In this document: positions 34,160-62,516 of the stretch, piece by piece | Position numbering within the stretch: the stretch's first letter is position 1 | Layout: every line of letters begins with the position of its first letter | DNA from: Liolophura sinensis | Taxonomy: Eukaryota; Mollusca; Polyplacophora; Chitonida; Chitonidae | Direction: 5' to 3' | DNA: 64,000 nucleotides | Assembly: GCF_032854445.1 (NCBI RefSeq) | Contig: NC_088301.1 | Span: 27,822,402-27,886,401 of the forward strand | Made by a program: the position numbers and the translations under genes | The notes under the pieces: generated by a model | Databases searched by the model: none | What the model saw: only the letters and a program-made list of their open reading frames with translations | What the model was told of the DNA's origin: nothing

Positions 34160-34665
34160 GGATAAGGCAGTGTTGTCGGATGTTTTTTTGTGAAAGGTTA
34201 AAATTTACTTTAAACACTTCGATTTCATACACTAGTAAACTTGAATGCCATCATTTTCGCTGAGGGCAGTGTTGTCGGATGTGTTTTTGTGAAAGGTTAA
34301 AATTTACTTCAAACACTTCGGTTTCATACACCAATAAACTGGAATGGCATCATTTTCGCTGAGGGCAGTGTTGTCGGATGTGTTTTTGTGAAAGGTTAAA
34401 ATTTACTTCAAACACTTCGGTTTCATACACCAACAAACTGGAATGGCCTCATTTTCGCTGAGGGCAGTGTTGTCGGATGTGTTTTTGTGAAAGGTTAAAA
34501 TTAACTTCAAACACTTCGGTTTCATACACCAACAAACTGGAATGGCCTCATTTTCGCTGAGGGCAGTGTTGTCGGATGTGTTTTTGTGAAAGGTTAAAAT
34601 TTACTTCAAACACTTCGGTTTCATACACGAATAAACTGGAATGCCCTCATTTTCGCTGAAGGTAT
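34160..34665. repeat. Minisatellite, 99 nt, 5 units
   Basis: Unit GGGCAGTGTTGTCGGATGTG, then AAAGGTTAAAATTTACTTC and CTGGAATGGCATCATTTTCG. Confidence 0.95.
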
Positions 34666-37180: not shown

Positions 37181-37367
37181 TCATGTTTGAAGCTGACAAA
37201 CTGGCAAATCATTTTGACCCACCTCTTCCACTAGTCCAGCAGCTATGGTCTGTCCACTGCTTCGTAACATAAATCTCCCCAGGTCTTTAAAATCCTTGTA
37301 CAGTTCTAAACACACCGGTCTCTCCAGTTCCAACTCGATCACAGCATTGCTATTTTTGGTCAGACAC
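37181..37367 (-). CDS. HBS1L: HBS1L exon 16 (C-terminus and stop)
   Basis: Acceptor CGCTTACAG/GTGTCT, stop TGA 37183-37181. Reads [20 protein letters not shown], then [20 protein letters not shown] and TIAAGLVEE, followed by a short non-conserved tail. Confidence 0.94.
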
Positions 37368-40300: not shown

Positions 40301-43300
40301 CTCCAGAATTTTTTGGCTTATAAGAGGGCAGTAATTTCTATGGTTGGAGGAAACTGGAGTGCTTGGCATAAACCACTGAACCTTTGGCAGGATATTGACT
40401 ACCTTTCCCACATTTGACATCCAGATATTCACTCCACAGTTACATGTATGTAGCGCTCCACAGCTACATGTATGCAGCGCTCCACAGCTACATGTATGCA
40501 GCAGGGTCTGTAGTTTGTATAGCTACATAAATAGTCTCCAGGAAAACACAACCCTCTGTCAGATACCTACCAAACATCCTGAGGTAAAGCTGGACTTAAA
40601 CAAAATATGGGCTCATTCAGGGACCTGGGTCAGTAGTTATCAAACACAGCTACAGTTAAACTGCTTTGCTCTAGAAGAGTTTAAAATCTGCACACTGACT
40701 CTTTATTGCAGAGCAACGTTCTGATCATAATTTGAGATCTTTCCTGTTCTGAGTTTGGCTTTATTAAGGACTTTAAATTTATGACTTAAGTTGTAAGTTG
40801 CTTGATAAATAATAAATTGATTTGTGAGGTTATCTGCTGTTAAAGCCACAGCTACAACAATAAGAGGCCCCTGCCATCCATCAAAGTATCACATTCCACC
40901 CAGTGACACACCAGCCTTACCAATCTGTTTAAGTAAGGTTGGCCCACTGTACCAGGAAGACAACCTTGGCTCCTGGACTGGCTGAGTCAGATTTTCACCA
41001 CTGAGTCCACTGCAAGGGACATATGACAAGTCTGAGTCTTTAAAACCTGCTTGTTTGAGAAACTGACTCATCTTTTTGACGATTTCATCAAACCGCTTTT
41101 GAGTCCAGTCCACTGTGTCCATTTTATTAATTGCCACAATCAACTGAGACACTCCTGGAGAAAAAAAAGAAAAAAAGGAATTTAAGCTCAGGGAAATTTG
41201 CATCATCCATAAAACAACATCTATACTAACCCTGATTACCTTCTAAAGACAGCCTTACGTCACGCTATAACTAAGCCACACATTTAAGATTGCTGCACTC
41301 TTTTCCCATGTTAATTTGCTTAAAATCTGAATCCCTTAAATAGGATGACCATCCACCAGTAGCAGCTTTTTCCATGTCTCTTGATCATTTTACAGGCAAA
41401 CCACAAGCACGCCACTGACAAACCACTGGCAAACCACTAGCACACCACAGGCAAACCACTAGCAGACTAGAAACTCCCTACTTGTTCACAAATACCACAT
41501 CTTATTAAATGCATCTACACAGTGATAGTAAAAAGCCTGAATCAGTATCCTTACCCAGGGACCTAACAAGAAGGGCATGCTCTCTCGTCTGACCACCAGT
41601 CTCAAATCCTGTCTCAAATTCTCCCCGTGTGGCGTTGACAACTAAAATCCCAACATCAGCCTGTGCAGCACCTGTATATAGAACCCAAAGAGATATACTA
41701 CTTCAAATTCAGATCCACGGTATTTCACTTAGGGAAAAAATAGTACAATTTTTACCAAATACTGTTTTCCATTGTCTTTCAGAGGATGATACTCTTAAAA
41801 GTAAAAGACAATACAACATTAAGTTATCATCATCACAAATAATATTGAAAGTTGTATCTAAAGAGACCTCCTCTTTTTTTAAAAAGTTCCTTTGAACAGA
41901 ATTAAATTCAGGTATTTCAATTCTATAGTGGGCTTTACGGACTAATGACATCACGATGTTTTCTATTTTTACCATAAACCATATATTCACTGTCAGGATA
42001 GCTCCTATATTTATGTGTTTTAAAGTAAACATATATGAGCCCACACAAATCACTCACTGATTTATTTGTTGATGTGATTGGTGTTTTACGTCCTACTTGA
42101 GAAGATTTCACTTATACAACGATGATGGACAAGAGGCCTATTATGGTGGGAGGAAACTGGGCAGAGCCAGGGGAAACCCACGACCGTCCGCAACTAACCA
42201 TGAACTAACCACCTCGACCACAGAGGTCCTAATGAACCTCTGTGGACCCCCTTTGATTTATTTTATTTATTTGATTGATGTTTTACGCCGTACTCAAGAA
42301 TACTTCACTTACACGACGGCGGCCAGCATTATGGTGGGAGGAAACCGGGCAGAGCCCGGAGGAAACCCACAACCATCCGCAGGTTGCTGACAGACCTTTC
42401 CATGTACGTCCGGAGAGGAAGCCAGCATCAGCTGGACTTGAGCTCACAGCGACCACATTTTTGAGAGGCTCCTGGGTCATTACACTGCGCAAGCGTGTTA
42501 ACCGACTGAGCCACGGAGGCCCAGGACCTCCTTTGAGGTTCAGTAATAATAACATGCCTAATGAAGTACATCTTCAAATATTTAAATGCATTTAATTCTG
42601 TTCAAGAAAGACTTTAAAAAATATACACAAAAATTTCCAGTTCCAGTCGGACATAAAAACTTCTCACTTTTTTACTATCTTAAAACAGGCTTTGCCTTCA
42701 GGCCTTGTTATAAATGACAGGAACTACAATCTACAATGACCACAGGATGCCCAATGTAGTAGTTGTAAACAACGCTTGGTTATGAGAACACCCTGTCATT
42801 TTGGGCATGAAAGGATTACCTCAGATGACATTAGATTTTACCAATCACCTATACACATACATGTAGCCTACCTGTGATCATATTTGGGATAAAATCTTTG
42901 TGGCCTGGAGCATCAAGAAGCGTCACAGTTTTACTGTCCGTCTGAAAGCATGTCTGTGCCACATCCATTGTCACACCTCGTGACCTAAAATCCAGAATTA
43001 AGCGAGATTGTTTACTGTAACAACTGAACAAAGAAACAGACAAAAGCTGTAAAATGATTCTTTTGATGCCAATACGCAAGTTTGTCTGGTAAGAATCTTC
43101 AAGCTTCAAGTATAAATGAAAACTGAAAACTCTTCAGTGGCCCTATCAGGTGAGTGAATCACTCAAAATCATGCAGTATGTGTCATTCGGTGCTGATGAA
43201 AAGAAGCAGGGACACATACTGTTATATGTGGCTGTCACAAGAAGCTATATAAAGTTACTCGGGTCAGTCAAGTTTTTGACATCCTGTCTTTAAGCTTGGG

Positions 43301-46300
43301 TGAGTTGGTCAATTTTTTTAAATCCTGTCTTTGAACGTGGTTCATTCCCTTAATTAGGGTCCTGAATGGGCAGCCAATATGGAGTTTTAAAGGAAAAGAC
43401 CTCTAAAAATAGAGGTAGGCATCACTAAATAGACCACTTGCAGAAAAACTATGCAGAAATACACTTTCTTTTTATTTTTTTAGATTTTTGTGAAAAAGAG
43501 TTAAAGGCGTTCAAACATTTGACTTCTAAGGTCAGCCTTATGGACCATACTATCAGAGGGTTAGGAACTCAGATGTCACAGGAAGTTTTTCCAACTTTAA
43601 TCACAACACTGAATGTTGGAGTAACTCTTTTCACCTATGAGGAAGGAATTACTGAAAAAATGCTCCCAGAAATTCCTTCTGTCCGATGAACATCACGAAA
43701 AAAAGGTGATATGACGTCAGAGTTCCTAAATAACATCAATATGGCTCATAAAGCCCACCATAGAATTCAAATATTTTAATGCCTTTCAACACTCTTAAAA
43801 AAATCTAAGAAAATAAATAAAGTATTTTTAGGCATAGTTTTCAGTTGTCTATATGATGAACCTTACTTCATATTTTAGCTTTCCTTTACTTCAAGCAAGA
43901 TACAAGTTTTAGCAAGTATTTTCAGTTAGTGTTTTCTGTCTTATGGTGTACCATATACACAGTACTTATTTTCTAAATATTTTCGCTGCGCCCCCACTGC
44001 ATATGAAGGTTAAAACATTGGCTAGCTGCGACTGTCAGGCTTGTAATCAATGTGGCTTGAAGTCAAAAGGTTTGTCAAGTGCCTGGTGAATCTGATGGTT
44101 TACTTTGGGCATTCTGGTTTCCTCGACCGACAAACTTGGTCATGACCATAACCATATATGCGGAAACTCTTGATATTACATGTTAAGGCTCCAATCCAAT
44201 AGACCAATTTCCCTGCAGACATTTTTTTTCCAAATATTACAGTTGGTCTTTGTCAGCTCTTGGTATTTTACATGCTACAAAAAATTCTCCAGATCTTAAA
44301 TCATTACACTTGAGGCCACGTCCACCTCTCATTCGCCTTTGAATCTAGGACAACTGCTCCTTCATTACCTCTCCTCTTCTGTCTCATCCAGAACCCATGC
44401 ATATGCAAATGAGCCCTTGCCCACTTTTTTGGCTTCCTGTTCATATTTATGCATAGTCCTCTTATTGACAGCTCCTAACTGATACAGCAAATGTCCCATC
44501 AATGTGCTCTTCCCAGCATCCACATGACCTGATGTAAAACAATACAAACACAATATATTGACATATATAGTCTGAAAATAATGGTTCCTAAAGGCCAGTG
44601 CACCCTACACAATTTTGTCACATGTAATTTTTCTCCATTACGAAGCAGCCGATGTATTTGACATATTATCATGAGACATAATAATGTTTCATCGGTTTAC
44701 CAATGTTTCACAGACCATTTTGTTGTGAGCAGAGTGTATCATTTGATCTGAAACGATTCTGTTGCTTCCAATAAAATCATATAAAATGTTGATGAAGGCA
44801 GGCCTAGAAGACACCCTGCCATCTTTTATTTGTAGAAATAAACAGCATAGCAGGACATTATTTAGGGTTACTTGCACATGGCCTGCAACTGAACTGACAC
44901 CATGGTAGAAATGTGGAGATGAGATTTGACAATGTCTAGCCAGTGCTTGCCTTGGGAAGCAATATTTGCCAAACCAAATATTCTGCATTTCTGTACCAGT
45001 AACACAAAATAACACATGATTACAAACCTATAACAACAAGATTGATGAGATCTTTGCTTCCCTGTCGTTTCCTATACTCTTCCATCATCTTGGCTTGATC
45101 TTGTCGATTTCTGGCAAAGGTAAATTAAAACAGAAGCTATATGTGAGTATTACACTTTTAGACTGTACTATGTCTACCAATTTGAAATTTAAAATCTGAT
45201 TTAAATGTGAAATCTATTTTAGTATATGAAATATACTTTTAACTATTTTAGTATATGAAATATACTTTAACTATTTTAGTATATGAAATATACTTTAACT
45301 TGTAAAAATTACACTCATCACTATGTTGTAAATGTAAGTATACAATAACCAACAGCAGGGGACACACTAGGCAAATGTTTTTGTTCACAGAGGCATATTT
45401 TGCAAATTTTTAAAATTCACATTTATAATCTGATGTTGGAAACTTACACTGGTTTGGCCAATTGGCCAATTTCAGGGCTTCAACAAAAAAATACAATTTT
45501 ATCAGTCTGCACAGAATAATGCCTTCAGAAAACGTCTGAATGAACAAACATGCAAAGAGGTCGAAGAATTACAGTAGCGTATATGAGAACAAATTCATCC
45601 AAAATGGATCCTAATGTTATATAGTATATGGTTAATGATAGCACATCATAATGTATTTCTCTATTAGCCACTTTCAAAGTCATTCAAAGTGGAAGTATTT
45701 ATCACTCAAGGGCAAAAGCCAAACAAACTTTGATGATTTTGGAATAGCACCAGTTGATTTATCCCCATCTCCATCTTTCTGTGGAGTTGCCATGTCAACA
45801 ACATCAGAAGGCGGCTCCATTGATAACGAGGCCAGCTTTGTATTTGTGTCATTCTCTGTGGAACAGAACGCAATTGTACAGAAGCAAGAAAGCTCAGAAA
45901 CTTCAAGATTTTCCTGCCATGGAGTATTTATTAGAAGAGTGTTTTACGCTGTTGCTCAGAATATTTCACTTATTTAACAGTGATCAGCATTATAGTGGGA
46001 GGAAACCTGGCAGAGTATGAAGGAAATCCATGATCATCCGCAGGTTGCTGGAGGACCCTCCCACTTACGGCCGGAGAGAAAACCAGTCTGAGCTGGACTT
46101 GATTCGGCAATTGCATTGCTAACCACTCAGCTTTGGAAGACCCCTATCATCCTATAATTGAAAAACTCGAGTATGAAGGTCAATAACAATAAATTATTTA
46201 TTTATTTGATTGGTGTTTTACGCAGTACTCAAGAATATTTCACTTATACGACTGCGACCAGCATTATGGTGAGTAGAAACCGGGCAGACCCCGGGGCAAA

Positions 46301-49300
46301 CCCACGACCATCCGCAGGTTGCTGACAGACCTTCCCACGTACGGCCGGAGAGGATGCCAGCATGAGCTGGACTTGAACTCACAGCGACCGCATTGGTGAG
46401 AGGCTTCTGGGTCACTACGCTGTGCTAGCGCGCTACAATAACAATAAATAAATGAATCAATCAGTTTGGAGAAATTCAGGTGTGAGAGCGCTCGAATACT
46501 GGCATGTAGGACCTGTGGGAAACCGACACCCATTACACCAGTACTTGACAAGATTTCTGGCAAAACAGCAAAGCCAAGCTAGATGCGTCTGCATATATCA
46601 ACATGACAACCTCATTGGTGCAAACAATGCACACTATACGGATAGTTTTACATATTTGCAATTCAATAATGTCCTGATTTTTGGTTAAGTAAATTAGGGA
46701 AAGAGAAGAAAACCAACCTGAATCTTTGGCAAGCTTCTTCTCATTCTGTGGGGTGATGACTTTGGAGAAATCTGCTGCTTTCGCCGCCGTACCATCATTA
46801 GCTTTGACCGTCACCACACGGGGGACTGGATTCTTCAGGGTAACAACAGGCGGTGATGGAGCAAAGGCAGAAGCTGTTGATGTGAACCAAGAAGAGTTAA
46901 TGCCCTTGCCATCTTTGACAAGATTACTCTGACTTTTATAATGGACTGGTTAATTGTTGTTTATTTTCATTCTTAAGAATTCTTCACTAACACAATGACG
47001 GTCAGGTCTATCATTAAAGGAAGCCTTTGTGCCTGATGTAAACCACCAACGTTTAGCAAGTTAAAGTAAAAGAAGCCAAAATACTGAAACTATGCGTAAA
47101 AATACTTTCATTTACCTTTCAGATTTGTTTTGAAGAGTGTTGAAAGGTATTTAAATATTTGAATACTATGGTTGGCTTTAACAGCCATACTGAGAGTATC
47201 TTAGAACTCTGACTTTTTTCGAGAGCATTACTTCAGTAATCTTTCATTCATGGGTAAAAAGAGTTATTCAAACATTCAGTGTTGTGAATAGAGTTGAAAA
47301 AATATCAGAGTTCCTAAACTCTTACAGTTTGGTCCATACAACCCACCTTAGAATTCAAATGTTTGAATGCCTTTAACTCTTTTCAAAAAATCTAAAACAA
47401 TAAATGAAAGCGTATTTCTGCTTAGTTTTAAATGGTCTACTAGTATTTAGTGATCCCTATCTCAATTTTTAGAGGTCTTTTCCTATCAATAACAAACATT
47501 CCTATGTGTAACGTAAGAACTTGCATACCACATTGATGGAAGACAAGTGGTCTTCAAAAAAGGTACAAATACCTCAAGAACCCCCCATGGACAGCTCGTC
47601 ACCAAAGCTCTCCTATGAACAGTTAGGGTGGATGATTCAACAAATAACCTTATAGTTAGTAGTCAAGGCGTCTTACTCACTGAGTAACACCCTGTTCTCC
47701 ATTTTTATCTGGATATTTATTTATTTATTTATTTGTTTATTTGATTGGTGTTTTACACCGTACTCAAGAATATTTCACTTATACGACGGCGGCCAGCATT
47801 ATGGTGAGAGGAAACCGGGCAGTGCTCGAGGAAAACCCACGACCATCCGCAAGTTGCTGTCAGGCCTTTCCACGTACGACCGGAGAGGAATCTGGATAAG
47901 AGGTTAGGAAAATATACTGATATTATATTGAATATAATGGCTGATTGATGTTTACTGTCAGATTCCACTAAATGTAGCTTCACAAGTCAGTCTTGTCCAA
48001 CAGGTTTTATACTTGTGCAAGCTACAAAGCCATGGTCCAGCTGGAGAGTGACACACTACCAAGTCAGCTTCACCTATAACCCGTTATAGATCTGACACCC
48101 AGAGTTTCTCATGAGAATTAAACTTTAACAAGGTGCCGACTTATCCCTGGATATATAGCCACATGTATCTTACAAATACTTACACAAATGTTCAGAATGG
48201 ATTTGCAGCAATGAAAATTGGACCCTAAAACCATTTCTGTATAAGTGCACATTTCCCAGATGGTATTAATGTGAAAGCAATTACATGTAATAATAAGTAT
48301 TCCATTTTTCAACCTAGAAATAATTTTGAGCGAAAACACTGGTCTGAGTGAGACTCAAACCCAACACAGTGGTGCGTAGTCATAACACCCTACCAACTGT
48401 ATGAGCTACCAAGCCAGACTGTCAATGATGAAAATGGCAGTTATATTAAGAATTCTGGATGTAGTGCATTTGCAATACATATTTGCTACGCGCTTGACAA
48501 AAGTGGTCAAAATCTTCCATAAATTGGACAAAACAGTAAAAAATTCAGAGCTGATCTGTAACATGTCTTGGTGAACAATGTGAAACAAAGTTTCAGTTCA
48601 AAATAATGAAGAAAAATAAAAGTCTGGATAACTGACAAAGATCTGAAACACGATGAAACAGCCGTAACATTGCTGAAAATTTACAAATCATCTTGATTTG
48701 TAACTTGTCATGGTGAAATTTTTGTATCCACAATTTCACCACAAACAAGAGTTCGGGTGAACACAACGTATGTCCGAAACAAATGCATTTGTCTGCAAAT
48801 GTACAAAAGAATACCAGCAGCATTAGGGTGAGTATAACCCCTGAGGGCAATCTTCATGGGTGTTCATAATAGGTATGTGGTTACCATGACAACTGTGTAA
48901 GTGGATAAATGTGTCCGCCAAAAAATGAAAACTTTATCTGGAAAACAGTGGGAGTTGTAGCCCGGATACGAAATCATTTCTATTTATATAGTAAAATGGC
49001 TATCTGGTAACCATAACAACCACAGAAATAGACAAATGTGAGTCGCCATCTGTGTATGCATGTATCCACCAAAAATTAAAACTATACGCACAAAACAGTT
49101 GGAGGTATAGCCCAGACATGAAATCCTATCTATTTATATAGTATACATGAGGATATGGCAATCTGGTAACCATAACAACTGTGGAAATGGACAAACGTGA
49201 GTCGCGACACATCGTCGTCTGTGTATGCATGTATGCAACAAATACTAAACTATGTGGAAAACTGGAGTTATAGCCCACACACGAAACCATATCTATCTAA

Positions 49301-52300: not shown

Positions 52301-55300
52301 TATCATGGCAACCTTCCACAGATACACATAGCTGCCATATCATGGCAACCTTCCACAGAGACACATAGCTGCCATATCATGGCAACCTTCCACAGAGACA
52401 CACAGCTGCCATATCATGGCAACCTTCCACAGATACACATAGCTGCCATATCGATATGTGGCATTTGCCTTCTTCACTAGCAAAATTATGAATGCTGCAG
52501 TATGCTGCCCTTATTTCTCAACTTCTTGTTTAAAGGATGAGCATTTGATATTTATGCACATAAGTAATTTGATTGCGAAAATAAATTTAGATCACTGGGC
52601 AGGCTTGATCAATTTTGGGGCATGACACGAGTATGAAGAGGAGAGTAACGTACTCCAGAAACAGCCATGCTATAAACATAGGCCGAACGAATAAAAACGA
52701 GCTATATGCTCTATAATCTCATGAGATGTTTTCACGGTTGGGGGTAAGGGGTGGGGGCAAATGATAGCACTCTTAGTCTTAACACTGTAATGTTAAGGCA
52801 TTTAGATGGTGGACTGCCAGAACTATTATATCTTGCTCTAGGAGCAGAGATATATCTAGTGTTGGTGGACATGCAAATACATGTACTCCTTCTTCAGACA
52901 TTCTGAAACTTTTATATGTACAGAATCAGGTCACCAGCCCTCTTCTTGATACTTCAAACAGAGTACAAGACTTTTTTTTTGCTTCACTGAAACTGAATTC
53001 TGTTGAAATACTGGGTATTCCAATTACACAATTAAATTAAATTAAAAAAAAAATAATAAAAATAAAAAACACTCCCTCACACATGCACATACATCAACAT
53101 TCTGAACTGAACCCGAAAGTAAACGAAACATCCTATTTTTGGCAGATTATTACTTAATATCATTCTGAAAGGCATTCCACAGTGAGTCTGAAAGCGAACA
53201 TGTATCACGTATCTGGGTGGTTTGAGTGATGTAGGTATATGTAACAAGGCCTCCACTTCATGACCTTTGCACTTTTATGAGTCTTCGCATGATGAAATAT
53301 GAGTTTACGTCCTTTTCATTTGCTTTATGGTCAGTCCTTTTACATGTGCTCAACTGAAGAGCACTGATAGATGCATATGTGTAAGTCTGTCACCAGGGAC
53401 TTCTGTTGCAATGTAAGTTATCGATCACCTTACGTCAGGGGCTTGCTGCTGAGGGCAGTAAATGCCTGCTCTTGTTTGGCCTTAACCAGGTCATCTGGTG
53501 ATGGGGTGGAGAAATCAAACCTCACACACGCCCCAATGTGGGCAGGTGGGGAGGGCAGTTTGGATAGTATTTTAGCCTGCCTACAGTAGCTGAATGAAGG
53601 GAAACGCAACTGTGGACATGTATCCGGTTCAAATTTGTGTGACATCTGTGCCACTACACCTCCAAACTGAGAAGGAGGTGCTTTAACCTCACTGGTTACT
53701 TTAATTTCATGCATGTCAAAAGTGATCTGAGTTTGGGCCTGCTCTAAGTCAACGGCCCCAGTTGTTTCTTCCTTCCATCCATCCTCCATTGCAACAGTAT
53801 TCTCTGTTCCATCAGCAGTCATTGATACAGAGTTAGTTTCTTTAATGGGTTTTGAAGTCAACAATGCTTTTGTCAGATCAATGCCTTTAGTACTGGAAGG
53901 TGAATTTCCTGAGAGTAACTTCTGTTTGGAATGTAAAGAGTTCCCACCATTGACTGATGTTACAGTCATTGCCATTGGTCTGGGATCAGACATCAAAATG
54001 TTTCCCTCATGTGGATTGGCTAAATCCTCCTTTACCTTTGCCACTCCACTTTTAACACGGAAAAGCTGATTGGGTAATTCAGGCATTGGATTTGAGGGTT
54101 TTTTTACATGTAACCTGGCCAATTCGGCTAAAGACACTGGTTTGCTGGAACAACTACTTCCATGATTGGCCAAGCCAGCTTCCTTTTTATGATGCTGACT
54201 GCTCAAGTCTGCTAATGAAACTTTGGACAATTTCTTGGGCACCTCTTCGGAGTCTGCATCGGGCCTAATATCCGAAAGTTTTATTTCACCATCGTGTGTT
54301 TTGCCCATGACTGGCTTACTTTGTTGACAGCTGTGCTTGTTGGCCAAATCTGCCAAAGACAACTTTCCCACCCCTGAGCTCAAACTGTTTGATGACAGCG
54401 TTGCTCTCTTCCCTTCATGTTTCTTTGCCAGCTCTGTGAGACAGCTTTGCTTTTCTTCTTGCTGAATGCCCTTTGAATCACTCTTATATAATTTCTCAGT
54501 AGCATTCAAAGAAAGAAATGCAAGCTTGTCTTTCACGATTTGATCACTTGAAACAAGATTTGGAATGTCAATGTTTTTAGGAGGGCTTCGAGAATCCACT
54601 GCCTTTTTTAACATGGATAATGGGCTTTCAAACTGAAAAACCTTTGCTTTTTGATTTAATTTACTCCCTTTTGAAACTGAACTATTTTTGCTGAAGTTGC
54701 TTGGGCTAGGAAGTAAGTCAGTATATTCCTGGTTACATAAGGGTGGAATAATTTCATTTGACTCAGATTCCGAGTCATCTGAACAATCAGAATGATCATC
54801 TCCTTACCTTACCGTAGCCGAAATAAGAAATACCATTGAGGGGTGAGGGTTAAGTTTGAGTAATCACATCCAGTAGTCAAGGAGCGGGGGTCACGCAAAG
54901 GTGAAGAAAGAAAAAGAAAATAGGCAAACTGTTAGCGACTGACAGTAATGCATATCCAAAGTTAATTTACAAAATAGATGTCTCTCTAAATAATGTGACG
55001 AAAACTTACTGTTCCATGCTCTAGTGATATTGTGTAAAAAAACAATTTTATGCTTCCTGTCCATTTCTATAAACAAGAGAATCTACTGTTAAACAGTTAT
55101 GAAAAGTTTCACACCTTGTGACCGAGCTCTCCTGTTCTGTCGTGGCTCACGCTGGGGTTTCGGGGCATCTAGAAGGAGAAAAATGACATATCACAATAGT
55201 GGTATAATGTACAATGTAAATGATATACCAAAAGGCCAACCAGTCGTTGCACTGTTACAAACGTCCTCTTTTTCAAGGTCTTAGGTGTTACTTTATTCCT

Positions 55301-58300
55301 CAACACAAGGAAAGTTTCATGTATTATAATGCAATTACATGTAAATGTACAGTAAGTAAAAGTATATTATAATCAAAATACAGTTCTCTCCCTATACACA
55401 ATGTATTTGCTATCACTTGGCTGAACTCTTGTTTCTGGAAAAAAAATTGTGAGCACAACAAAATTTGTTTTTCTGTTTCTGATTTTTAATTCATTTACTA
55501 TCTTAGTTCATTCTGTGATAACTTATTTATTTATTTGATTGGTGTTTTACGCCGCACTCCAGAATATTTCATTTATACGACGGCGGCCAGCATTATGGTG
55601 GGAGGAAACCGGGCAGACATTCTGTGATAAAATTTAAGTAAGGGCCCTACAAAATGTCCACCCTAAATGACCTAAAATTCCGTCCAAGATTAAGTTGCTC
55701 ATTTTTCTAGATTCTGGGAGTTCTACTGCTTTTAGAAAGGTTCTTTGAAAGGTGTTTGGAAGGAGGGATAATATACCACTTGGAAAATGTGAATTTTAGC
55801 ACCACAAGTAATATCTCTTGAAATTTATTTGCCTCAAAAATGTTCTTTTTGTGGTAAAATTTTTATATATTTATTTTTTATATATTTTATATATTTATTT
55901 GATTGTGTTTTATGCTGTATTCAAGAATATCTCATTTATATGACGGCAGCCAGCATTATGGTGGGACGAAACTAGAGCCCAGGGAAAACCCATTCGCAGC
56001 TTGCAAGCAAACCTTCCCAAGTATGACCAAAGAGGAAGCCAGCATGAGCTCATATGACGGCGGCCAGCAATATGGTGGGAGGAAACTGGGCAGAGCCTGG
56101 GGGAAACCCACGACCATCCGCAGGTTGCTGACAGACCTTCCCACTTGTGGCCAGAGAGGAAGCCAGCATGAGCTGGACTTGAACTGACGGCAACCGCATT
56201 GGTGAGAGGCTCCTGGGTAATTAGGCTGCACTACCGCACTAACCAACTTAACCTACGTGTGCTTCCTGACCCAGTTGTTCAAAAGTGTTTACGCAATTAA
56301 GCCTGGTATTAGCTTTAGTCTGGACAACAATGCCAGTTTTGCATTAGGCCAAGAGTGGTATTAAGATTTAAGCCTGGATTAACGTTTAATACATCCCCAG
56401 GGTCATGTTGCTAACACTAACCCTTAGGACACAGAGGCCCCAATGAATGAATCCTCAGGAAATCAAAGCATGGCTTTCCACAACACATCGTTATCATCTG
56501 ACCTAGAAGTGACTTACATGTACAGTAAATCTTTAACCTATTCAACTTTTAAAGCACTTTTTTAATAGAAATTCATGCATATAATTATTAAGAAAATGAC
56601 AATAAAATGACTTGCTTTCTTTGTCATTAAAGATGCAAATTATTTCTCTACACACCACAGTTCTTTCAGAATGTTTTAAAATCATGGATGCAGAGGTTGT
56701 TTAAGGGAGATGAAAACTTAAAAACATGACACTATAGGCTGAAAAGAGCACATTTTTTTCTATCTGGTGGTGCCTGCTGCATAATTTTGCGATTTTTCTT
56801 CGCCATACATGTAAAGCCCGAATATGGCAAAGCTGGCATAAATCGCTGAGTCCATCGCGTCCTCCATCTTTAACACCCTGTAATTTATGCTGGAGGTGTG
56901 TTGCCGCTCAAACAATGAGAGACATTAAAACTGCCGGCTTGTTCGTGTAAACTCGGAACCCATGTCCAACAATCCGGTTTCCCGATCGTCCAGTAGAAAA
57001 TGAACTGTACTGTTCGCTACGTTCTGGGAAGAAGAGTTCTACCGGAAATGTACGAACTGCACTTTGGCAGTTTCCGACAGCAATTCTCCTCACAGAAGGC
57101 TTCAGGACTAATTCTTGGGCAAAATGGAGTCGCCCACAGCGGATTCTAGTGCTGACTTTATTTATAATTTATCACCTTGAGGTACATATTAGAATTTTTT
57201 TATAGCATGCACCTGCGAGGAAATGCATACTCTTTTCAATGGTATTTGATTGATATTTAAATTTTCTTCTCCTTTAAAAAATTGAAGAATTAGGGTAATA
57301 TATCATTTATTCTATGCAGCCTGAAACAGCCACAACTTTCAAGAAGTTAAACGCAAATAAAATGCCTCTTGTCTTTTTCTAATCAACAATTTACACTAAA
57401 ATCAGACACACATAACCTGACAGGAAATGATGTTCACATAATGATAGATCTGCGTTTCTTGTAACTTTTTTCGCTCTGTGTGAGACAAGCACATTCAGAG
57501 AATTTCTATGCCATGCCAAATATCCATAACCTACATGTATATCCGGATCAGGCTAGGCTTAAAACTTGAACTGCACACAAACTTTTATCAAAACTGGAAT
57601 GTAATATATGTAGTTTTTCATTTATGTAATGGGAAGCAGTCATAAGTGTGGAGGAAACCGGAGTGCTCAGGGTGAACCATTAGCCCCTGGCAAGTTAGTG
57701 ACAAACCTTACGCAAGCCATATTGGTGTAAGACATATGGTCAAACTAAGACTAATAAAATGGCAAAACAGTGTCTTGGGCCACTTACAGTTAAGGCCTCG
57801 CTAGAAGTGAGAGTGAGTAAATATACAAATTTCCTGTCCAAGACCGGGTTTGAACCCACACCTTGTGTGTTCTGGAAGACTGAAAGACTGTACCTTGTTG
57901 AGACAGCAGGACGTTCAAGGCCTTCTGTGTGTCATAGCCCTGGTCTATAATGGTAGTGATGAGGGTGTTGTCTGGAAATGTGTCCCCCAGGATTCCTCGC
58001 ACCTCCTCTAGACAACTATTCAGTCGTACTACAACAGCAACAAACACTCAGAAAGTTTATCATCAAGTTACATGTATTTGTTCCAGTGATATTTTTTATT
58101 GAGTTCCAAGATAACTGGTTAACCAGATTACTGTTTTACCATAGTCAAAGTTATTTACTAACTGGATACGGTGTCTTACATGTTACTGAAGTTTATCTGT
58201 TTCATACTAAATTGATCTTTTACACTGTACTCCAGATTATCTGTCCAACAGATGTGTGTTTTGCAACATACTCAAGATTATTTTCACATGTAACATCACT

Positions 58301-61300
58301 TGCAATAGAAAAGCAATTATTTCCTGTAACCATATAAGATATGCATCTAGGAACCTACGTCATTTTGCTAAATGTTAATTACGGCGTTTAATGCTATACT
58401 CAAGAACATTTCACAAAAAATAACAGCCCTCAGGTTTATGGGAGAGCATCAAGGATGAAACCACCTTCTCTGGCTGGTAACTGACAACTCCTTGTCCCGT
58501 GATTAGGCCTGGTGGGGTGACTAGAGCTTACATCCCTCTTGGTCAGTGACTACAGACTACATTCATCTTGGTCACTGAGTTTAGGCTTTGTGGAATGACT
58601 AGAGCTTAAATTCACCTTACCCACTGAGTTTAGGCTTTGTGGAATGACTTCAGCCTAAATTCACCCCACTCACTGAGTTTAGGCTTTGTGGAGTGACTAG
58701 AGTTCACATTTGTGATCTTGGTCACTAAGTTTTGGTGTAGAGGTAAAAGCTTACATTCATCCTGGTCACTGAGTTTAGGTCTTTTGAAATCTCTGGAGTC
58801 GCTGAGAGAGTCATGATGATCGCTGTCACTCTCCTCCCCTTCCTCTTCTGGGATTTCCTCCTGACCCATGTAACTGGACAGATCTGTCTTACGTTCTCTG
58901 TTGAACGTAAACTGTGCCGCTGTAAAGACCAAATATATATTCCAACTAGTATTCCGCAATAAAGCCCAAGAGCACGCACGAGTAGGTAACACCTAACTAC
59001 ATTCATAGGCTAGCTATAAAAAGGGTATCTCTAATTCTGCTTCTGGCCCCAAAAATTTAACCTCGCCTATAAAGTTAATACTTGTGTTCACCAAACCAAG
59101 ATAATCTCCTTTCATTTACCACACTTCAAACATTAATTTAAATATGGTGGTTGATATTGAGAATGTATAAATAATACAGATAGTGTCCACTGTTAAGCCA
59201 TCAGATGGTCAAATTTTTTATTTATCTGATTGGTGTTTTACGCCGTACTCAAGAATATTTTACTTATACAACGGCGGCCAGTGTTATGGTGGAAGGAAAA
59301 AGGGCAGAGCCAGGAGGAAACCCACGACCATCCGCAGGTTGCTAGCAGACCTCAGCTGGTCAAGGCAAGGTAACAAATAAATGCACACAACTCTACCTGT
59401 GGCCGGCGATATGCAATAATCATCGTCTGGAACCGAGTGGCCATACACTGTATCTTCTTCATAATACTCTGTGAAAGGAAAGAAAAGAAGATTATCATAT
59501 TTGCCCTCTTGCCCACCCCATTCTTTTGTAATTACGGGAACAAACAACATAAACCACATAATTAAGTAACAATGAACAGAATTACAGCCATGTTCTTAAT
59601 TAATCTGATAATCTGATCATGACAACATGTGGCAGTGAGAAAGATTGTCCAAATTTAAACTGATTTAAACTATATGGTAATTATATGGTGATCTGTTGGG
59701 ACCCAATGGGCTATAATCAAGTCCATATTTTGTGCTTGAAACAGACTGTTTCAAGGTCCATTTGGTGAATGCACGCATAGCTTTATATCTATATGCATTT
59801 GAAATGCAATAGCCTATCAGCTTGTGTATTGTGTCAAATGCAATCATAACAAAATAAATCCACAATGCGCAGTTCCAACACTCATGCCATACAGGAATGT
59901 CTCTTTGTCTTCTTTTAACATTGTGAAACTGGTTTAAACTATCTGAGGGATAACAGAGAAAACAGAATTTACATATATGTCATGTATGTTTATTTATTTA
60001 TTTATTTATTTTATTGTTAAACATAATTTTTCAATTATATTATGGCAGTCAGTTTTACAGGGTGCCCGGGGTAGAGGAGTTGGAACAAAATCAATAACAG
60101 TAGAATATATACTGCGAAATAATTAAAAACTTCAGAAATCATGAAAGATTTATATTAGGAGTTACCCAGGTGTAACAATTAGTTGTGGCGGCACAACTAT
60201 TTGTTGAAATCAAAATACATAAATGCTTTGAAATTGAAGCCAGTGGTTTATTGGCAAATAAGCAGACCAACATGACACAGAAAAGAACTGGCTGGTGTAC
60301 TGGAATACCACGAACAAAGCAGAAAATGCACTTACATGTGTAATATTGAAGTTTCTATGTTGATGGTTCTTTAATTAGCGTCCTTTATGTCCTCTATGCA
60401 ATAATAAACGAAATTTCCAGTAATTATAGGGCCTATATCATTACAAATGTTGATCTACTGTTACTGAGTTTAATGGATTTATCAGCTTATTTTAGAAGAT
60501 GCGGTAAATCTGACAAATTACATCTTATCAGTTTATCTAGTTCAGTCTGGAACCAACTCAAGATACTGGTCATTATATTATTTATTGTGATCCACTACAA
60601 TCCACCCAAGCATGCAACAATTACTTTCCTCTATTATCAACAGGTAAGTTGAAGCCTCAGATAACAGGTGTAAATGATTTAAACACGCCTGTGCACCAGT
60701 AGGAGCTTCCTTTAAACAGCATCCTTACTCTATATGAACGATATTACACGATGAGTAGGCCTGTAGGCTTAATTGCCTCTATGTGTATTCACATCCATTA
60801 GAATTGAGCTCTTGTGTACGTGTACCGAGAGGAAAATACTGCAGAAGTAGGTTTTGTATTACTTCCAAGAACTCTGATTTCCAGGTCTGACGCTTCCGTC
60901 TCCCAAATAAGGTGGTATGTATACACTTTTTACTTTGCTCTTTCGGTTGGCGTCATCTTTTTTGAAAGTGGATCGGAAAGTATATCAGTACTCTGTCAAA
61001 GACATGCAATATTCTGATTTTCTAATGTTAATCAAAAGGGCCATTTTTGGATTTTTTAACACTGAATTTCACTGAAAATGTGCTTCCGACCTCCAATTCA
61101 CTTCTGCAGTCAATAGCTTGATATGTTATCTACGTTGACACAAAATTTTATTTTTCTCAATTAATTGGAAAGAAAGTATTTCAAATAACGAAAAATCATT
61201 TTACAGCACGGCCTTTTTCAGATCACTGTATCTAGCTAACCAAGTCTCTTACAGCTGTCTAACATGCTCATAGGTGGTTTTCTAACCAATTCAGAACTGT

Positions 61301-62516
61301 TCTTGGTTCGATGTACTTATGGGGGAAAATGTTACACAGAGGCAATTTATGTGTTCTTTGGAGAAGGCTCCTATTCTGGGTCTAGCTGATCAAAGTGTAC
61401 ATCAAAGTGGGACAAGACTGCATGAAGCCTTTAAATACTTCAACAGACCAGCATGCAGTCAGCGGGTCAGTCATCCGTGACCAGGCCAAGTAGTGCCTCC
61501 CTCTAATCTACCTCCATGGTGACATTTATCACCCATCAAAACAAAACAGGGGAGGGCAGGACATGTTGATGTTATAAACCACTTGTTAAATTTCCTCTTA
61601 CTAGGTGACAAGCTGAACTGAGCATACAGCATAGCCAAGCAGGTTGTCAAACCCACATGAACTGTTTAAATTGTTTGTCATCTCCAAGACGGTGTTTCCC
61701 TTCCGGTAATATATCCTGTTTTTATTTTCTACTGATATGTATAAAAGGATCTTTGAGTGATGAATTTCCACAATACACATGGTTAATTTAGTTCATATAT
61801 ATGTAAGCTTATTGAATTCAATGATTGTAGAATACAAATGGTCTAAGTAGACACAACTAAGAAGACTGTATTTGGCATTATGTTATGTTTTAAACTGACC
61901 ATGCTGCTTTCAAATAAACAACAAATGTTAGTAGTTCATGGAGCTGAAAAAATTAGGTTGCTGTCTACTGTTCACTCTGCTCGTATGTTTACTGTGAAAG
62001 GCAGTTTCTTCAAAGAACTGACATCATATGCTTTACCTTATGCTTCTAACTTATTGCAAAAATATCAACCCAAACAATTACAACTCCCACACACAGCTTG
62101 GTTAATTCTTGAAAGCAAACATGCAGCTGGTGAAATACTCCGAATAAATTTTCACACACAATGTTATGAGCAATTTTCGGCCACAGATTTTCTTTCACTG
62201 TCGGTAGTTCAAAAATGGCTACTTCAACTCCTCTCTTTATGCTGGTCTGGCGGTTATCATAGCCACAGGGAAATTAATGGTTAACCATACACCGATTCAC
62301 ACCGATAAATGCAAAAACTGGTGAATAACAGCAGAATATTCCTCTGTCAACATTGAAATGACTGACATTCGTCGTTGTTGTTGTTGTTGTTCTAAGTTCT
62401 AAGCAGGCCGTCATATAGCCTATGCAAAACGCTAACTGTTGACATTATTGAAATCTGTTACATTTGACCGTACCATCATCGATGTTCATAGTCCGGATAT
62501 TTCTGTGTCTTGCCAT
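37181..62516 (-). CDS. HBS1L: HBS1L orthologue, ribosome-rescue translational GTPase, 16 exons, 706 aa
   Basis: Complete gene; exons in order are 62474-62516, 59397-59468, 58755-58919, 57894-58028, 55115-55168, 46718-46873, 45729-45855, 45028-45110, 44369-44528, 42872-42984, 41555-41671, 40921-41154, 39566-39835, 38694-38797, 37709-37809 and 37181-37367. They sum to 2,121 nt with all phases consistent (human 684 aa). HBS1L partners Pelota to recognise stalled ribosomes with an empty A site (no-go and non-stop decay). The N-terminus matches human ([28 protein letters not shown]), followed by a small helical HBS1_N domain (about 100-135) and a low-complexity linker. The EF-Tu type G domain starts near 275: G1 GHVDAGKST 279-287, G2 RGVTMD 334-339, G3 DAPGH 356-360, G4 NKMD 418-421, G5 SGLSG 457-461. 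Beta-barrels II and III follow, ending [20 protein letters not shown]. All GTP-binding residues are intact. Confidence 0.96.
37709..37809 (-). CDS. HBS1L: HBS1L exon 15 (domain III)
   Basis: Acceptor GTTTTTCAG/GTGGTA, donor CGACCCAA/GTAAGT. Reads [20 protein letters not shown] then [13 protein letters not shown]. Confidence 0.93.
37920..38188 (-). mobile_element. SINE-A, full length with 11-bp target duplication
   Basis: Complete element; CCTTTGAAGGA at 37909-37919 and 38189-38199. Lies in HBS1L intron 14. Confidence 0.92.
38355..38612. repeat. Tandem duplication, about 120 nt
   Basis: GCAAAAAAGATTTAATTACA / GCAAAAAGATTTAATTATAG start the two copies; both end CCTATCTTTAGTACACAC. Confidence 0.9.
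38694..38797 (-). CDS. HBS1L: HBS1L exon 14 (domain II to III junction)
   Basis: Acceptor CTTTCAG/GTAGTA, donor TATCCT/GTAAGT. Reads [20 protein letters not shown] then [15 protein letters not shown]. Confidence 0.92.
38836..39017 (-). mobile_element. SINE-A, head-truncated
   Basis: Tail and body up to GAGCTGGACTTGAACTCA. The segment AGTTAATTTAT recurs on both sides, consistent with a target duplication. Confidence 0.82.
39566..39835 (-). CDS. HBS1L: HBS1L exon 13 (beta-barrel domain II)
   Basis: Acceptor TTATAACAG/ATAAAT, donor CTGTAG/GTAAGG. Contains [40 protein letters not shown] and [18 protein letters not shown]. Confidence 0.95.
39958..40245 (-). mobile_element. SINE-C, tRNA-derived
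   Basis: A third family: minus-strand head GGGCTGTGGCTGAGTGGTCA with box B GGTTCGAATCCTGCC (type with a long variable arm), a body with GGAGCAAACCAGAGTGTCCA on plus, and the shared tail domain (TTTTAACGCCATGCTAAAGA). Confidence 0.75.
40270..40420 (-). mobile_element. SINE-C fragment
   Basis: GGTTGGAGGAAACTGGAGTG and GGCAGGATATTGACTACC motifs of the SINE-C body, with a degenerate tail domain. Adjoins the copy at 39958. Confidence 0.6.
40438..40503. repeat. 24-nt tandem, 3 units
   Basis: CGCTCCACAGCTACATGTAT repeated. Confidence 0.9.
40921..41154 (-). CDS. HBS1L: HBS1L exon 12 (G4 and G5)
   Basis: Acceptor TTTTCTCCAG/GAGTGT, donor CAGATTG/GTAAGG. Contains [14 protein letters not shown] and [12 protein letters not shown] and ends TLLKQI. 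Confidence 0.95.
41555..41671 (-). CDS. HBS1L: HBS1L exon 11 (G domain)
   Basis: Acceptor TATATACAG/GTGCTG, donor TCCCTGG/GTAAGG. Reads [20 protein letters not shown] then [19 protein letters not shown]. Confidence 0.95.
42056..42235 (-). mobile_element. Diverged SINE-A
   Basis: GATTGGTGTTTTACGTCC, a GATGATGGACAAGAGGCC insertion-like variation and a short remnant of the head. Confidence 0.65.
42255..42525 (-). mobile_element. SINE-A, full length
   Basis: Complete head to tail, directly following the older copy; short flanking similarity CCTTTGA. Confidence 0.88.
42872..42984 (-). CDS. HBS1L: HBS1L exon 10 (G2 and G3)
   Basis: Acceptor GATTTTAG/GTCACG, donor ATCACAG/GTAGGC. Reads [20 protein letters not shown] then [18 protein letters not shown]. 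Confidence 0.95.
43390..43905. mobile_element. MITE-like fold-back element, family D
   Basis: Arms of about 190 bp: AGACCACTTGCAGAAAAACT...CTTATGGACCATACTATC on the left pairs with the reverse complement of the right arm (TATGGCTCATAAAGCCCACC...GTTTTCAGTTGTCTATATGA). No transposase ORF. Confidence 0.8.
44369..44528 (-). CDS. HBS1L: HBS1L exon 9 (G1 P-loop)
   Basis: Acceptor TTACATCAG/GTCATG, donor GAGGAGAG/GTAATG. Reads [20 protein letters not shown], then [20 protein letters not shown], then [13 protein letters not shown]. Nearly identical to human HBS1L. Confidence 0.95.
45028..45110 (-). CDS. HBS1L: HBS1L exon 8 (start of G domain)
   Basis: Acceptor CTTTGCCAG/AAATCG, donor GTTATAG/GTTTGT. 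Reads [20 protein letters not shown] then DLINLVVI, the helix and first strand before the P-loop. Confidence 0.92.
45218..45300. repeat. 28-nt tandem, 3 units
   Basis: ATTTTAGTATATGAAATATA followed by CTTTTAACT-like spacer. Confidence 0.9.
45445..45610. repeat. Interspersed repeat family E, copy 2
   Basis: See 25575; both contain GGGCTT(G/C)A(A)CAAAAA and AATAATGCCTTC in the same order. Confidence 0.55.
45729..45855 (-). CDS. HBS1L: HBS1L exon 7 (linker)
   Basis: Acceptor TGTTCCACAG/AGAATG, donor TCATCAAA/GTTTGT. Reads [20 protein letters not shown], then [20 protein letters not shown] and SS. Low complexity and poorly conserved, as in human. Confidence 0.8.
45930..46135 (-). mobile_element. 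Diverged SINE-A
   Basis: GTGTTTTACGCTGTTGCTCA through GAGCTGGACTTGATTCGGCA. More divergent than its neighbour. Confidence 0.65.
46195..46435 (-). mobile_element. SINE-A with 14-bp target duplication
   Basis: CAATAACAATAAAT at 46181-46194 and 46436-46449. The first part of the tRNA head is missing although the duplication is intact, so it was 5'-truncated when inserted. Confidence 0.9.
46718..46873 (-). CDS. HBS1L: HBS1L exon 6 (linker)
   Basis: Acceptor CACATCAACAG/CTTCTG, donor GATTCAG/GTTGGT. Reads [20 protein letters not shown], then [20 protein letters not shown], then [12 protein letters not shown]. The acceptor was chosen by phase; an upstream AG at about 46927 would break the frame. 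Confidence 0.8.
47062..47495. mobile_element. MITE-like fold-back element, family D
   Basis: Same family as 43390: ACTATGGTTGGCTTTAACAG on the left and CACCTTAGAATTCAAATG on the right form the inner arms. Confidence 0.75.
47716..47889 (-). mobile_element. SINE-A, 5'-truncated, 9-bp target duplication
   Basis: ATCTGGATA at 47707-47715 and 47890-47898; the tRNA head is absent. Confidence 0.87.
48340..48418 (-). mobile_element. tRNA-like SINE head, other family
   Basis: Minus strand reads GGTAGCTCATACAGTTGGTA (box A) and GTTGGGTTTGAGTCTCAC (box B). No intact cloverleaf; a pseudo-tRNA or SINE head. Confidence 0.4.
48890..49490. repeat. Diverged tandem duplication, about 130 nt, 4 units
   Basis: Each unit has ATCTGGTAACCATAACAAC, a GTGAGTCGC motif, TGTATGCATGTA and GAGTTATAGCC-type segments in the same order. 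Confidence 0.75.
50090..50240 (-). mobile_element. SINE-C-like fragment
   Basis: GGAGGAAACCACCGCCCTTT and CAGGTACCTGACAAAGCTCC, the SINE-C body motifs. Confidence 0.5.
50241..50425 (-). mobile_element. SINE-A fragment
   Basis: Body and head remnant from GCGCCCGGGGGGAAACTCAT to GCCAATGAGGCCCCCATC. Confidence 0.65.
50483..50752 (-). mobile_element. SINE-A, full length with 13-bp target duplication
   Basis: TATGTGCTGTAAA at 50470-50482 and 50753-50765. Confidence 0.92.
51915..51976. repeat. 16-nt tandem, about 4 units
   Basis: GAATGATTACATGTAT repeated. Confidence 0.9.
52014..52452. repeat. Minisatellite, 37 nt, about 11 units
   Basis: Unit AGATACACATAGCTGCCATA plus TCATGGCAACCTTCCAC. About 1 kb downstream of the SKI7-like stop codon, so possibly within its 3' UTR. 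Confidence 0.95.
53430..54802 (-). CDS. HBS1L: Alternative terminal exon encoding the SKI7-like region (457 aa)
   Basis: By far the longest exon in the window, open for 1,373 nt and ending TAA at 53432-53430. It begins with an acidic tract ([17 protein letters not shown]), then [12 protein letters not shown], and carries four copies of a short motif, [SC]-L-[AT]-[DE]-L-[AS]-x-x-H, at isoform residues 277-285, 305-313, 352-360 and 380-388 (for example [18 protein letters not shown]). It ends in a conserved-looking tail, [20 protein letters not shown]. No folded domain is evident; composition is that of a disordered scaffold with linear motifs, as expected for Ski7-type adaptors. The acceptor (GGTAAGGTAAG/GA) has a poor pyrimidine tract, which would suit a regulated exon; the exact 5' edge is the least certain part. 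Confidence 0.85.
53430..62516 (-). CDS. HBS1L: SKI7-like short isoform of HBS1L (HBS1LV3 type), 613 aa
   Basis: Exons 1-5 of HBS1L (156 aa) spliced to the alternative terminal exon at 53430-54802. Exon 5 ends in phase 1 and the alternative exon begins with two bases of a codon, so the frame is preserved and the total is exactly 614 codons with the stop. Human HBS1LV3, the cytoplasmic SKI7 that links the RNA exosome to the SKI complex, is 632 aa with the same plan: shared N-terminus plus one long unique exon and no GTPase domain. The match in length, exon position and reading frame is the basis for the call. Transcription of this isoform is inferred. Confidence 0.85.
55115..55168 (-). CDS. HBS1L: HBS1L exon 5 (last exon shared by both isoforms)
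   Basis: Acceptor TCCTTCTAG/ATGCCC, donor CAAG/GTGTGA. Reads [18 protein letters not shown], a short basic segment. Leaves in phase 1, compatible both with the SKI7-like exon at 54802 and with exon 6 at 46873. Confidence 0.85.
55524..55618 (-). mobile_element. SINE-A fragment, strongly truncated
   Basis: Tail and body up to GGAGGAAACCGGGCAG. CATTCTGTGATAA flanks both ends, consistent with a target duplication of a 5'-truncated insert. Confidence 0.8.
55635..55765. repeat. Interspersed repeat family F, copy 2
   Basis: CCCTAAATGACCTAAAATTC and AGATTCTGGGAGTTCTACTG, same order as 33755. Confidence 0.55.
55885..56260 (-). mobile_element. Two overlapping SINE-A copies
   Basis: A diverged tail-to-body piece (55885-56050) runs into a second body and head copy (56051-56260) beginning TATGACGGCGGCCAGCAATA. 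Confidence 0.75.
57610..57884 (-). mobile_element. SINE-C-like element adjoining HBS1L exon 4
   Basis: GTGGAGGAAACCGGAGTGCT and CCCCTGGCAAGTTAGTGACA body motifs, with box B-like GGTTTGAACCCACACC. Its right end is about 10 nt from the exon 4 donor at 57893. Confidence 0.6.
57894..58028 (-). CDS. HBS1L: HBS1L exon 4 (HBS1_N domain)
   Basis: Acceptor CTGTTGTAG/TACGAC, donor CAACAAG/GTACAG. Reads [20 protein letters not shown], then [20 protein letters not shown] and LLSQQ, a UBA-like helical bundle matching human HBS1L. A tRNA-type SINE starts about 10 nt into the intron. Confidence 0.93.
58378..58500 (-). mobile_element. SINE-C-like tail and body fragment
   Basis: GGCGTTTAATGCTATACTCA, AGAACATTTCAC and CTGGTAACTGACAACTCC. 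Adjoins the exon 3 minisatellite. Confidence 0.5.
58510..58785. repeat. Minisatellite, 49 nt, about 5 units, overlapping the HBS1L exon 3 donor
   Basis: Unit (plus strand) CACTGAGTTTAGGCTTTGTG plus GAATGACTAGAGCTTAAATT. The rightmost unit is the coding end of exon 3 and its donor; the others lie in the intron and carry decayed or intact donor copies. Confidence 0.92.
58755..58919 (-). CDS. HBS1L: HBS1L exon 3; 3' end derived from a minisatellite unit
   Basis: Acceptor CTTTACAG/CGGCAC, donor GATGAAT/GTAAGC. Reads [20 protein letters not shown], then [20 protein letters not shown], then [15 protein letters not shown]. The last 25 or so exon bases and the donor are a copy of the 49-nt tandem repeat that continues into the intron. 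Confidence 0.9.
59215..59365 (-). mobile_element. SINE-A fragment
   Basis: Tail and body to GGTTGCTAGCAGACCTCAGC, 30 nt downstream of the HBS1L exon 2 donor. Confidence 0.78.
59397..59468 (-). CDS. HBS1L: HBS1L exon 2
   Basis: Acceptor TTTCACAG/AGTATT, donor CCACAG/GTAGAG. Reads [20 protein letters not shown] then SPAT, the conserved acidic N-terminal motif. Intron 1 is 3 kb. Confidence 0.93.
59469..62473 (-). other. HBS1L intron 1
   Basis: 3 kb, mostly unique AT-rich sequence with a small SINE-tail-like fragment near 59990-60075 and a GTT microsatellite at 62374-62393. A plus-strand 134-codon ORF (61880-62284) has no recognisable similarity. Confidence 0.5.
62374..62393. repeat. (GTT)n microsatellite
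   Basis: GTTGTTGTTGTTGTTGTT in HBS1L intron 1. Confidence 0.9.
62474..62516 (-). CDS. HBS1L: HBS1L exon 1 (start codon)
   Basis: ATG at 62516-62514. Reads [14 protein letters not shown], then donor GATG/GTACGG. Nearly identical to the human N-terminus; only 43 nt of coding sequence. Confidence 0.93.

Follow-up and report, generated by a model that had tools for sequence, protein, structure and literature searches.

The question raised by this locus is whether the long open reading frame (ORF) in the fifth intron of an HBS1L gene is an alternative last exon through which that gene, besides the ribosome-rescue protein HBS1L, would also encode SKI7, an adaptor between two RNA-degrading machineries. 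In the 64,000-nucleotide stretch of DNA that was analysed, here called the window, the surrounding gene is complete: a 16-exon model on the minus strand runs from 62516 to 37181 with GT/AG at 15/15 introns and gives 706 aa, and residues 1-694 of the product align with Hbs1l, its best PDB match (5lzw_jj, E 1.2e-224). HBS1_N and the EF-Tu-type domains 1-3 (Pfam PF08938, PF00009, PF03144 and PF03143/PF22594) lie in one open reading frame, which is the composition of an HBS1 translational GTPase. The final 12 residues are unaligned to Hbs1l and uncertain, and the model may read through a donor there. Common to both predicted isoforms are exon 1 (62474..62516, with the start codon, MARHRN..., aligned with the Hbs1l N-terminus), exon 2 (59397..59468, GT/AG) and exon 3 (58755..58919, with an acidic stretch), both also aligned with Hbs1l, exon 4 (57894..58028), which holds the UBA-like HBS1_N domain (ILGD; PF08938 E 4.8e-8 on the surrounding ORF), and the 54-nt exon 5 (55115..55168), which ends in phase 1 and after which the isoforms diverge. 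The HBS1L-specific path continues with exon 6 (46718..46873, phase-1 acceptor), exon 7 (45729..45855), exon 8 (45028..45110, phase-2 acceptor) and exon 9 (44369..44528), where the GTPase G1 loop GHVDAGKST is found (Pfam GTP_EFTU). The remaining GTPase and domains 2 and 3 are encoded by exons 10-16 (37181..42984), with exons 10-13 at 42984-42872, 41671-41555, 41154-40921 and 39835-39566 and exons 14-16 at 38797-38694, 37809-37709 and 37367-37181, all on the minus strand.

The initial annotation placed a SKI7 exon at 54802-53430 on the minus strand, and its account of the frame was confirmed: the 1,373 nt are open, join exon 5 phase 1 to phase 1 and end in TAA, and together with exons 1-5 they give exactly 613 aa with a single final stop and without reaching any GTPase exon. 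At the DNA level this product thus has the N-terminus of HBS1L and no GTPase. The other two minus-strand frames of the same interval contain 23 and 44 stops. With 457 codons the ORF is the longest in the window, followed by one of 179, whereas the longest ORF in 200 first-order Markov sequences of 64 kb had a mean of 153 and a maximum of 245 codons. A codon score, trained on HBS1L exons only, was 0.225 per codon in frame, and none of the five other frames exceeded 0.062; the highest value among 2,000 random stretches from the first ~30 kb of the window was 0.155, so that 0/2,000 reached 0.225. A chance ORF is therefore excluded by length (457 versus at most 245 simulated codons) and by codon score, two tests that agree on a coding exon. 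No Pfam family matches this exon.

That the exon is specific to SKI7 is well supported, since searches in both directions match human SKI7 and since a complete GTPase-coding HBS1L surrounds it. When the PDB was searched with the 457-aa ORF by phmmer (E up to 10), the sole sequence returned was chain 9g8m_E (E 0.0052), which its depositors named 'Isoform 2 of HBS1-like protein'. This chain is taken as human SKI7, because the human PFDFxxxSPDDIVKxNQ motif is present (PMC6143672) and because its residues fit the numbering of Leu454 and Ile458 in PMC11540850. The likening of the 457-aa region to human HBS1LV3 in the initial annotation is upheld by this alignment, and the PDB search returned no unrelated protein. 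In the reverse search of 9g8m_E against the 2,238 window ORFs of at least 20 aa, the SKI7 ORF had an E of 1.1e-4 and the next ORF 2.1.

The similarity is concentrated near the C-terminus. In the Patch 4-like region 15/26 residues are identical to human SKI7 (AITPFDFKSASPDDIVKANQKKAFTR), and the motif, whose human counterpart is PFDFKSASPDDIVKANQKKAF, was located at 53460..53522 (minus strand) by PDB match and alignment. Judged against the animal consensus IaPF[D/R]F[K/D][S/T]aSPDDIV+A (PMC6143672), it is an animal-type Patch 4-like motif, though some consensus letters differ (R for P, L for I). Upstream of Patch 4 animals have a SKI7-like motif with the consensus A+PShFAahL (PMC6143672), to which the stretch at 53652..53681 (minus strand; human ARPSAFASTL) is a partial match: A, P, S and F are kept in a stretch of human length, without the positive second residue and without the A after F. 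From APPSQF to CRQ here and from ARPSAF to SRQ in human there are 35 residues each, of which 8 are identical. The SKI7-like match is weaker than the Patch 4-like one; in human cells it is the SKI7-like motif that is reported to be necessary and sufficient for exosome recruitment and Patch 4 that is reported to be neither (PMC6143672). Past the aligned AFT the protein continues for 8 residues here and for 2 in human (numbering of PMC11540850). Outside the C-terminal ~80 residues no significant alignment of human SKI7 with the exon was found, the repeat region alone had no PDB match at E up to 10, and a search of viral contigs for relatives gave 4 pattern matches, none of them a relative.

The upstream edge given in the initial annotation did not hold. 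Acceptors were scored with a matrix made from the 15 other acceptors of the HBS1L gene (14 intron bases plus 1), a small training set whose members were themselves scored leave-one-out. The acceptor before 54802 (taaggtaag/GAG, the slash marking the splice point here and below) scored -4.8, below all 15 others (-0.1 to 11.9), and was rejected on this score as the likeliest junction; joining exon 5 to 54802 is probably wrong. Another acceptor, in frame and in phase 1, lies 24 nt downstream before 54778 (attctgattgttcag/ATG). Its score of 3.2 is higher than that of just three of the 15 others but compares with -4.8 at 54802, and the likely coding exon therefore extends over 53430..54778 on the minus strand (1,349 nt, TAA end), with a predicted protein of 605 aa; the 24 nt at 54779..54802, included in the initial annotation, are open and have the very poor acceptor. 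With a matrix of 20 intron bases the order was unchanged (54802, -3.9; 54778, 2.0; others, -0.9 to 15.0). An out-of-frame AG before 54728 scored 5.5 (4.8 with 20 intron bases), which is above the preferred site at 54778, and an out-of-frame AG before 54807 scored -1.7; the preferred acceptor is shortly preceded by AGs at 54808, 54803 and 54800. Farther upstream in the same intron are acceptor-like sites stronger than 54778, such as the one before 55066 with a score of 7.2, but neither this nor any other upstream acceptor can serve the frame of the exon, because an in-frame TAA stands at 54806-54804, and a reading from upstream was ruled out accordingly.

The sequence AAG/GTAAGG at 54802..54810 (minus strand) forms a composite acceptor/donor-like site with a donor score of 10.9, printed as the 100.0th percentile. 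Within 54802-54815 an overlapping donor-like ACG/GTAAGG (99.9th percentile) and this AAG/GTAAGG stand exactly where the SKI7 frame opens; AG/GTAAG occurs twice on the minus strand of the window and four times on the plus strand. A recursive splice site at AG/GTAAGG (54808/54807) was considered and is not claimed, the acceptor side scoring just -1.7.

Taken at a probability of about 0.88, the best explanation is that the ORF serves an intact HBS1L gene as an alternative last exon specific to SKI7; the transcript, the exact acceptor and the use of a poly(A) site are inferred. Skipping of the exon would yield HBS1L, the Pelota-partner GTPase, and its inclusion after exon 5, with the junction most likely at 54778, would yield a GTPase-less SKI7 of ~605 aa. 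By homology with the human supercomplex (PMC11540850), the shared N-terminus would contact the 40S, the middle region SKI3, and the C-terminal part the exosome and SKI2, so that binding of both the exosome and the SKI complex may be predicted for the SKI7 made from this exon.

The downstream edge admits two other uses of the exon. Its stop TAA is contained in a donor-like GAC/GTAAGG (53428..53436, minus strand, splice after 53434) that scored 5.8, which places it at the 96.5th percentile of 4,112 GTs; the donors that the gene itself uses score 2.8-10.0. A hypothetical junction from 53434 to exon 8 is in frame and has no internal stop, and the exon would then not always be last and could contribute to a plant-like protein of 1,060 aa comprising SKI7 and the GTPase. 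Such a fusion gains from the rarity of the coincidence, as just 63/3,682 stop triplets on the minus strand (59/3,573 on the plus strand) overlap or abut an equally good donor, and from the downstream sequence, where neither AATAAA nor ATTAAA was found between the SKI7 stop and 50500 (2.9 kb), a result that also counts against the reading as a last exon. The variants CATAAA (53329, 53279 and 52556) and TATAAA (52916) occur below the stop in the part searched, down to 51500. Exons 6 and 7 would nevertheless have to be skipped, and animal SKI7 is described without a GTPase (PMC6143672; PMC7924785, for vertebrates). The fusion is considered very improbable because the donor was found after the fact and because the protein as read here ends close to the end of human SKI7. 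A second donor-like site, AAG/GTGATC, directly follows the stop with a score of 4.1; if it were used, the exon would be a cassette that tunes HBS1L levels through nonsense-mediated decay and no source of SKI7. Unproductive splicing of SKI7 has a precedent in plants (PMC6143672), yet a poison exon would not be expected to hold a long open frame with exosome-binding motifs, and we give this use of the exon only a very small chance.

Origin of the ORF as a decayed or unrelated insertion (a retrocopy or transposon) in an HBS1L intron would suit a window as rich in repeats as this one. It is nearly excluded by homology: the frame is open throughout, strand and phase are correct, the SKI7 motifs appear in the correct order, and the position within an HBS1L intron is that of human, which together make an insertion the most remote of the explanations considered.

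Within residues 121-232 of the ORF are four 9-residue repeats of the type SL[A/T][D/E]L...H, namely repeat 1 (54417..54443), repeat 2 (54333..54359, SLADLANKH), repeat 3 (54192..54218, SLADLSSQH) and repeat 4 (54108..54134, SLAELARLH), all on the minus strand, and in sequence they are similar to the SKI3-docking helix of human SKI7. That helix, residues 451-464, sits between TPRs 29 and 30 of SKI3, where Leu454 and Ile458 occupy the cleft (PMC11540850); by the numbering of construct 372-546 (a 179-residue chain) it is NLSLSELIAETIDV and carries an SL-x-x-L-type motif, and SLSSLAFHKA is included in human residues 430-450. Motifs were counted here and in human residues 375-631 with four patterns, all written after the repeats had been seen, and 20,000 composition-keeping shuffles were made for each. 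Of the strict human form SL[ST][DE]L the exon has no copy and the human segment two, a count reached by 1/20,000 shuffles. For [STC]L[STA][DE]L (4 here, 3 in human), [STCP]L[STA][DESQ]L (4 and 5) and the latter with a following H (4 and 2), no shuffle reached either count.

Comparison of codons across the six repeat pairs gave 9 identical, 17 synonymous and 10 amino-acid-changing pairs in the motif columns (S, L, A, D, L, H), and 1, 3 and 14, respectively, in the spacer columns. The few amino-acid changes in the motif columns prove nothing alone, because these columns were chosen for likeness. The DNA does differ in 17/26 of the codon pairs that encode the same amino acid, as might be seen in old copies kept at the protein level. 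A recent DNA duplication was rejected, as no direct repeat of at least 15 nt joins two of the units; the sole direct repeat of that length is an 18-nt pair (83%), one copy of which overlaps repeat 1 by 7 nt and the other of which, at 54634-54651, lies outside all four units. Tentatively, the part of animal SKI7 described as a long 'insert of unknown function' could consist of degenerate copies of a single short helical motif for docking on SKI3, a possibility that we rate as rather less likely than not. The putative array would comprise four [SC]L[AT][DE]L here and three copies, or five by the wider pattern, in human residues 375-457. Against it stand the Ala or Ser at the position of Ile458 in 4/4 repeats, none of which is a strict SL[ST][DE]L, and the finding that the extra human helix was unnecessary; just one human docking copy has been seen bound in the structures described in PMC11540850. 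Docking of the present repeats on SKI3 is a prediction from motif likeness. Were the array real, SKI7 would be a multivalent tether able to grip the SKI3 superhelix at more than one site or in more than one state, and the repeated SL-x-x-L motifs suggest a testable mode by which SKI7 might hold the SKI complex. A literature search on repeated or multivalent SKI3-docking motifs in SKI7 found no matching report.

Elsewhere in the window, a SINE-like element with a tail like ...GGCGTAAAACACCAATCAAATAAATA was noticed by eye, unaligned, in several copies within HBS1L introns (55560-55620, 55900-56240, 59220-59345, 46218-46424 and 47753-47907), and a literature search for its tail string gave no match. 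Many tandem arrays occupy 1-37500, including a 37-bp unit x 22 at 4998-5810, a 74-bp unit x 9 at 14620-15284 and a 99-bp unit x 5 at 34166-34659, and a 37-bp array of 11.5 copies lies at 52027-52452, ~1 kb below the SKI7 stop. When eight other window ORFs were searched against Pfam, 1/8 had a match: the ORF at 13663-14028 (minus strand) resembles ankyrin repeats (Ank_2, E 7.9e-6; 26.8 bits, the cut-off being 27.3) and is perhaps an exon of another gene.

A survey of SKI7 splicing published in PNAS in 2018 is said to have covered animals. SKI7-like proteins recognised by the two motifs were reported in 2018 from molluscs, brachiopods, cnidarians and others (PMC6143672), and the proposal of the initial annotation that a dual gene predates the vertebrate-mollusc split is therefore not new. 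Nor is the finding new in kind, being the known human arrangement in another animal. In a literature search on mollusc and invertebrate HBS1/SKI7 isoforms, PMC6143672 was the only source found to treat mollusc SKI7 (PMC4342817 was also checked), as far as the accessible parts of these papers go. PMC6143672 leaves undecided how gene and transcript structures evolved in animals and at what point the GTPase disappeared, and to this question one complete gene structure is added here. The placement of a GTPase-less last exon as in human suggests an early origin of the design within animals and, should the host be a mollusc, as the initial annotation and the kind of interspersed repeats suggest, its presence in the bilaterian ancestor.

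Human HBS1LV3 is SKI7 (PDB 9g8m and 9g8r; PMC11540850) and has, like the predicted protein here, a shared N-terminus, an alternative last exon that replaces the GTPase exons, and a Patch 4-like motif. Human SKI7 has 632 aa and the predicted protein 605 or 613 aa; the isoforms share 144 residues in human and 156 here (exons 1-5), and the split lies just behind the UBA-like region in both. The middle regions show no alignment beyond short SL-x-x-L motifs. Five coding exons precede the SKI7 exon here, whereas in human it is the fifth exon, described as a possible last exon of HBS1L (PMC3597508). Zebrafish hbs1l/ski7 likewise has a GTPase-less SKI7-specific exon with both motifs (PMC7924785), the SKI7-like match being partial here; its product has 576 aa, the exosome is recovered in pull-downs with its Patch 4-like peptide, and its expression, which peaks in ovary, eggs and early embryo, and its mutants have been studied in vivo. 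In plants and fungi, too, a single alternatively spliced locus gives both proteins in many species (PMC6143672, PMC3597508), but the plant SKI7 form retains the GTPase and some fungi may make a truncated form, whereas the exon here stops before the GTPase.
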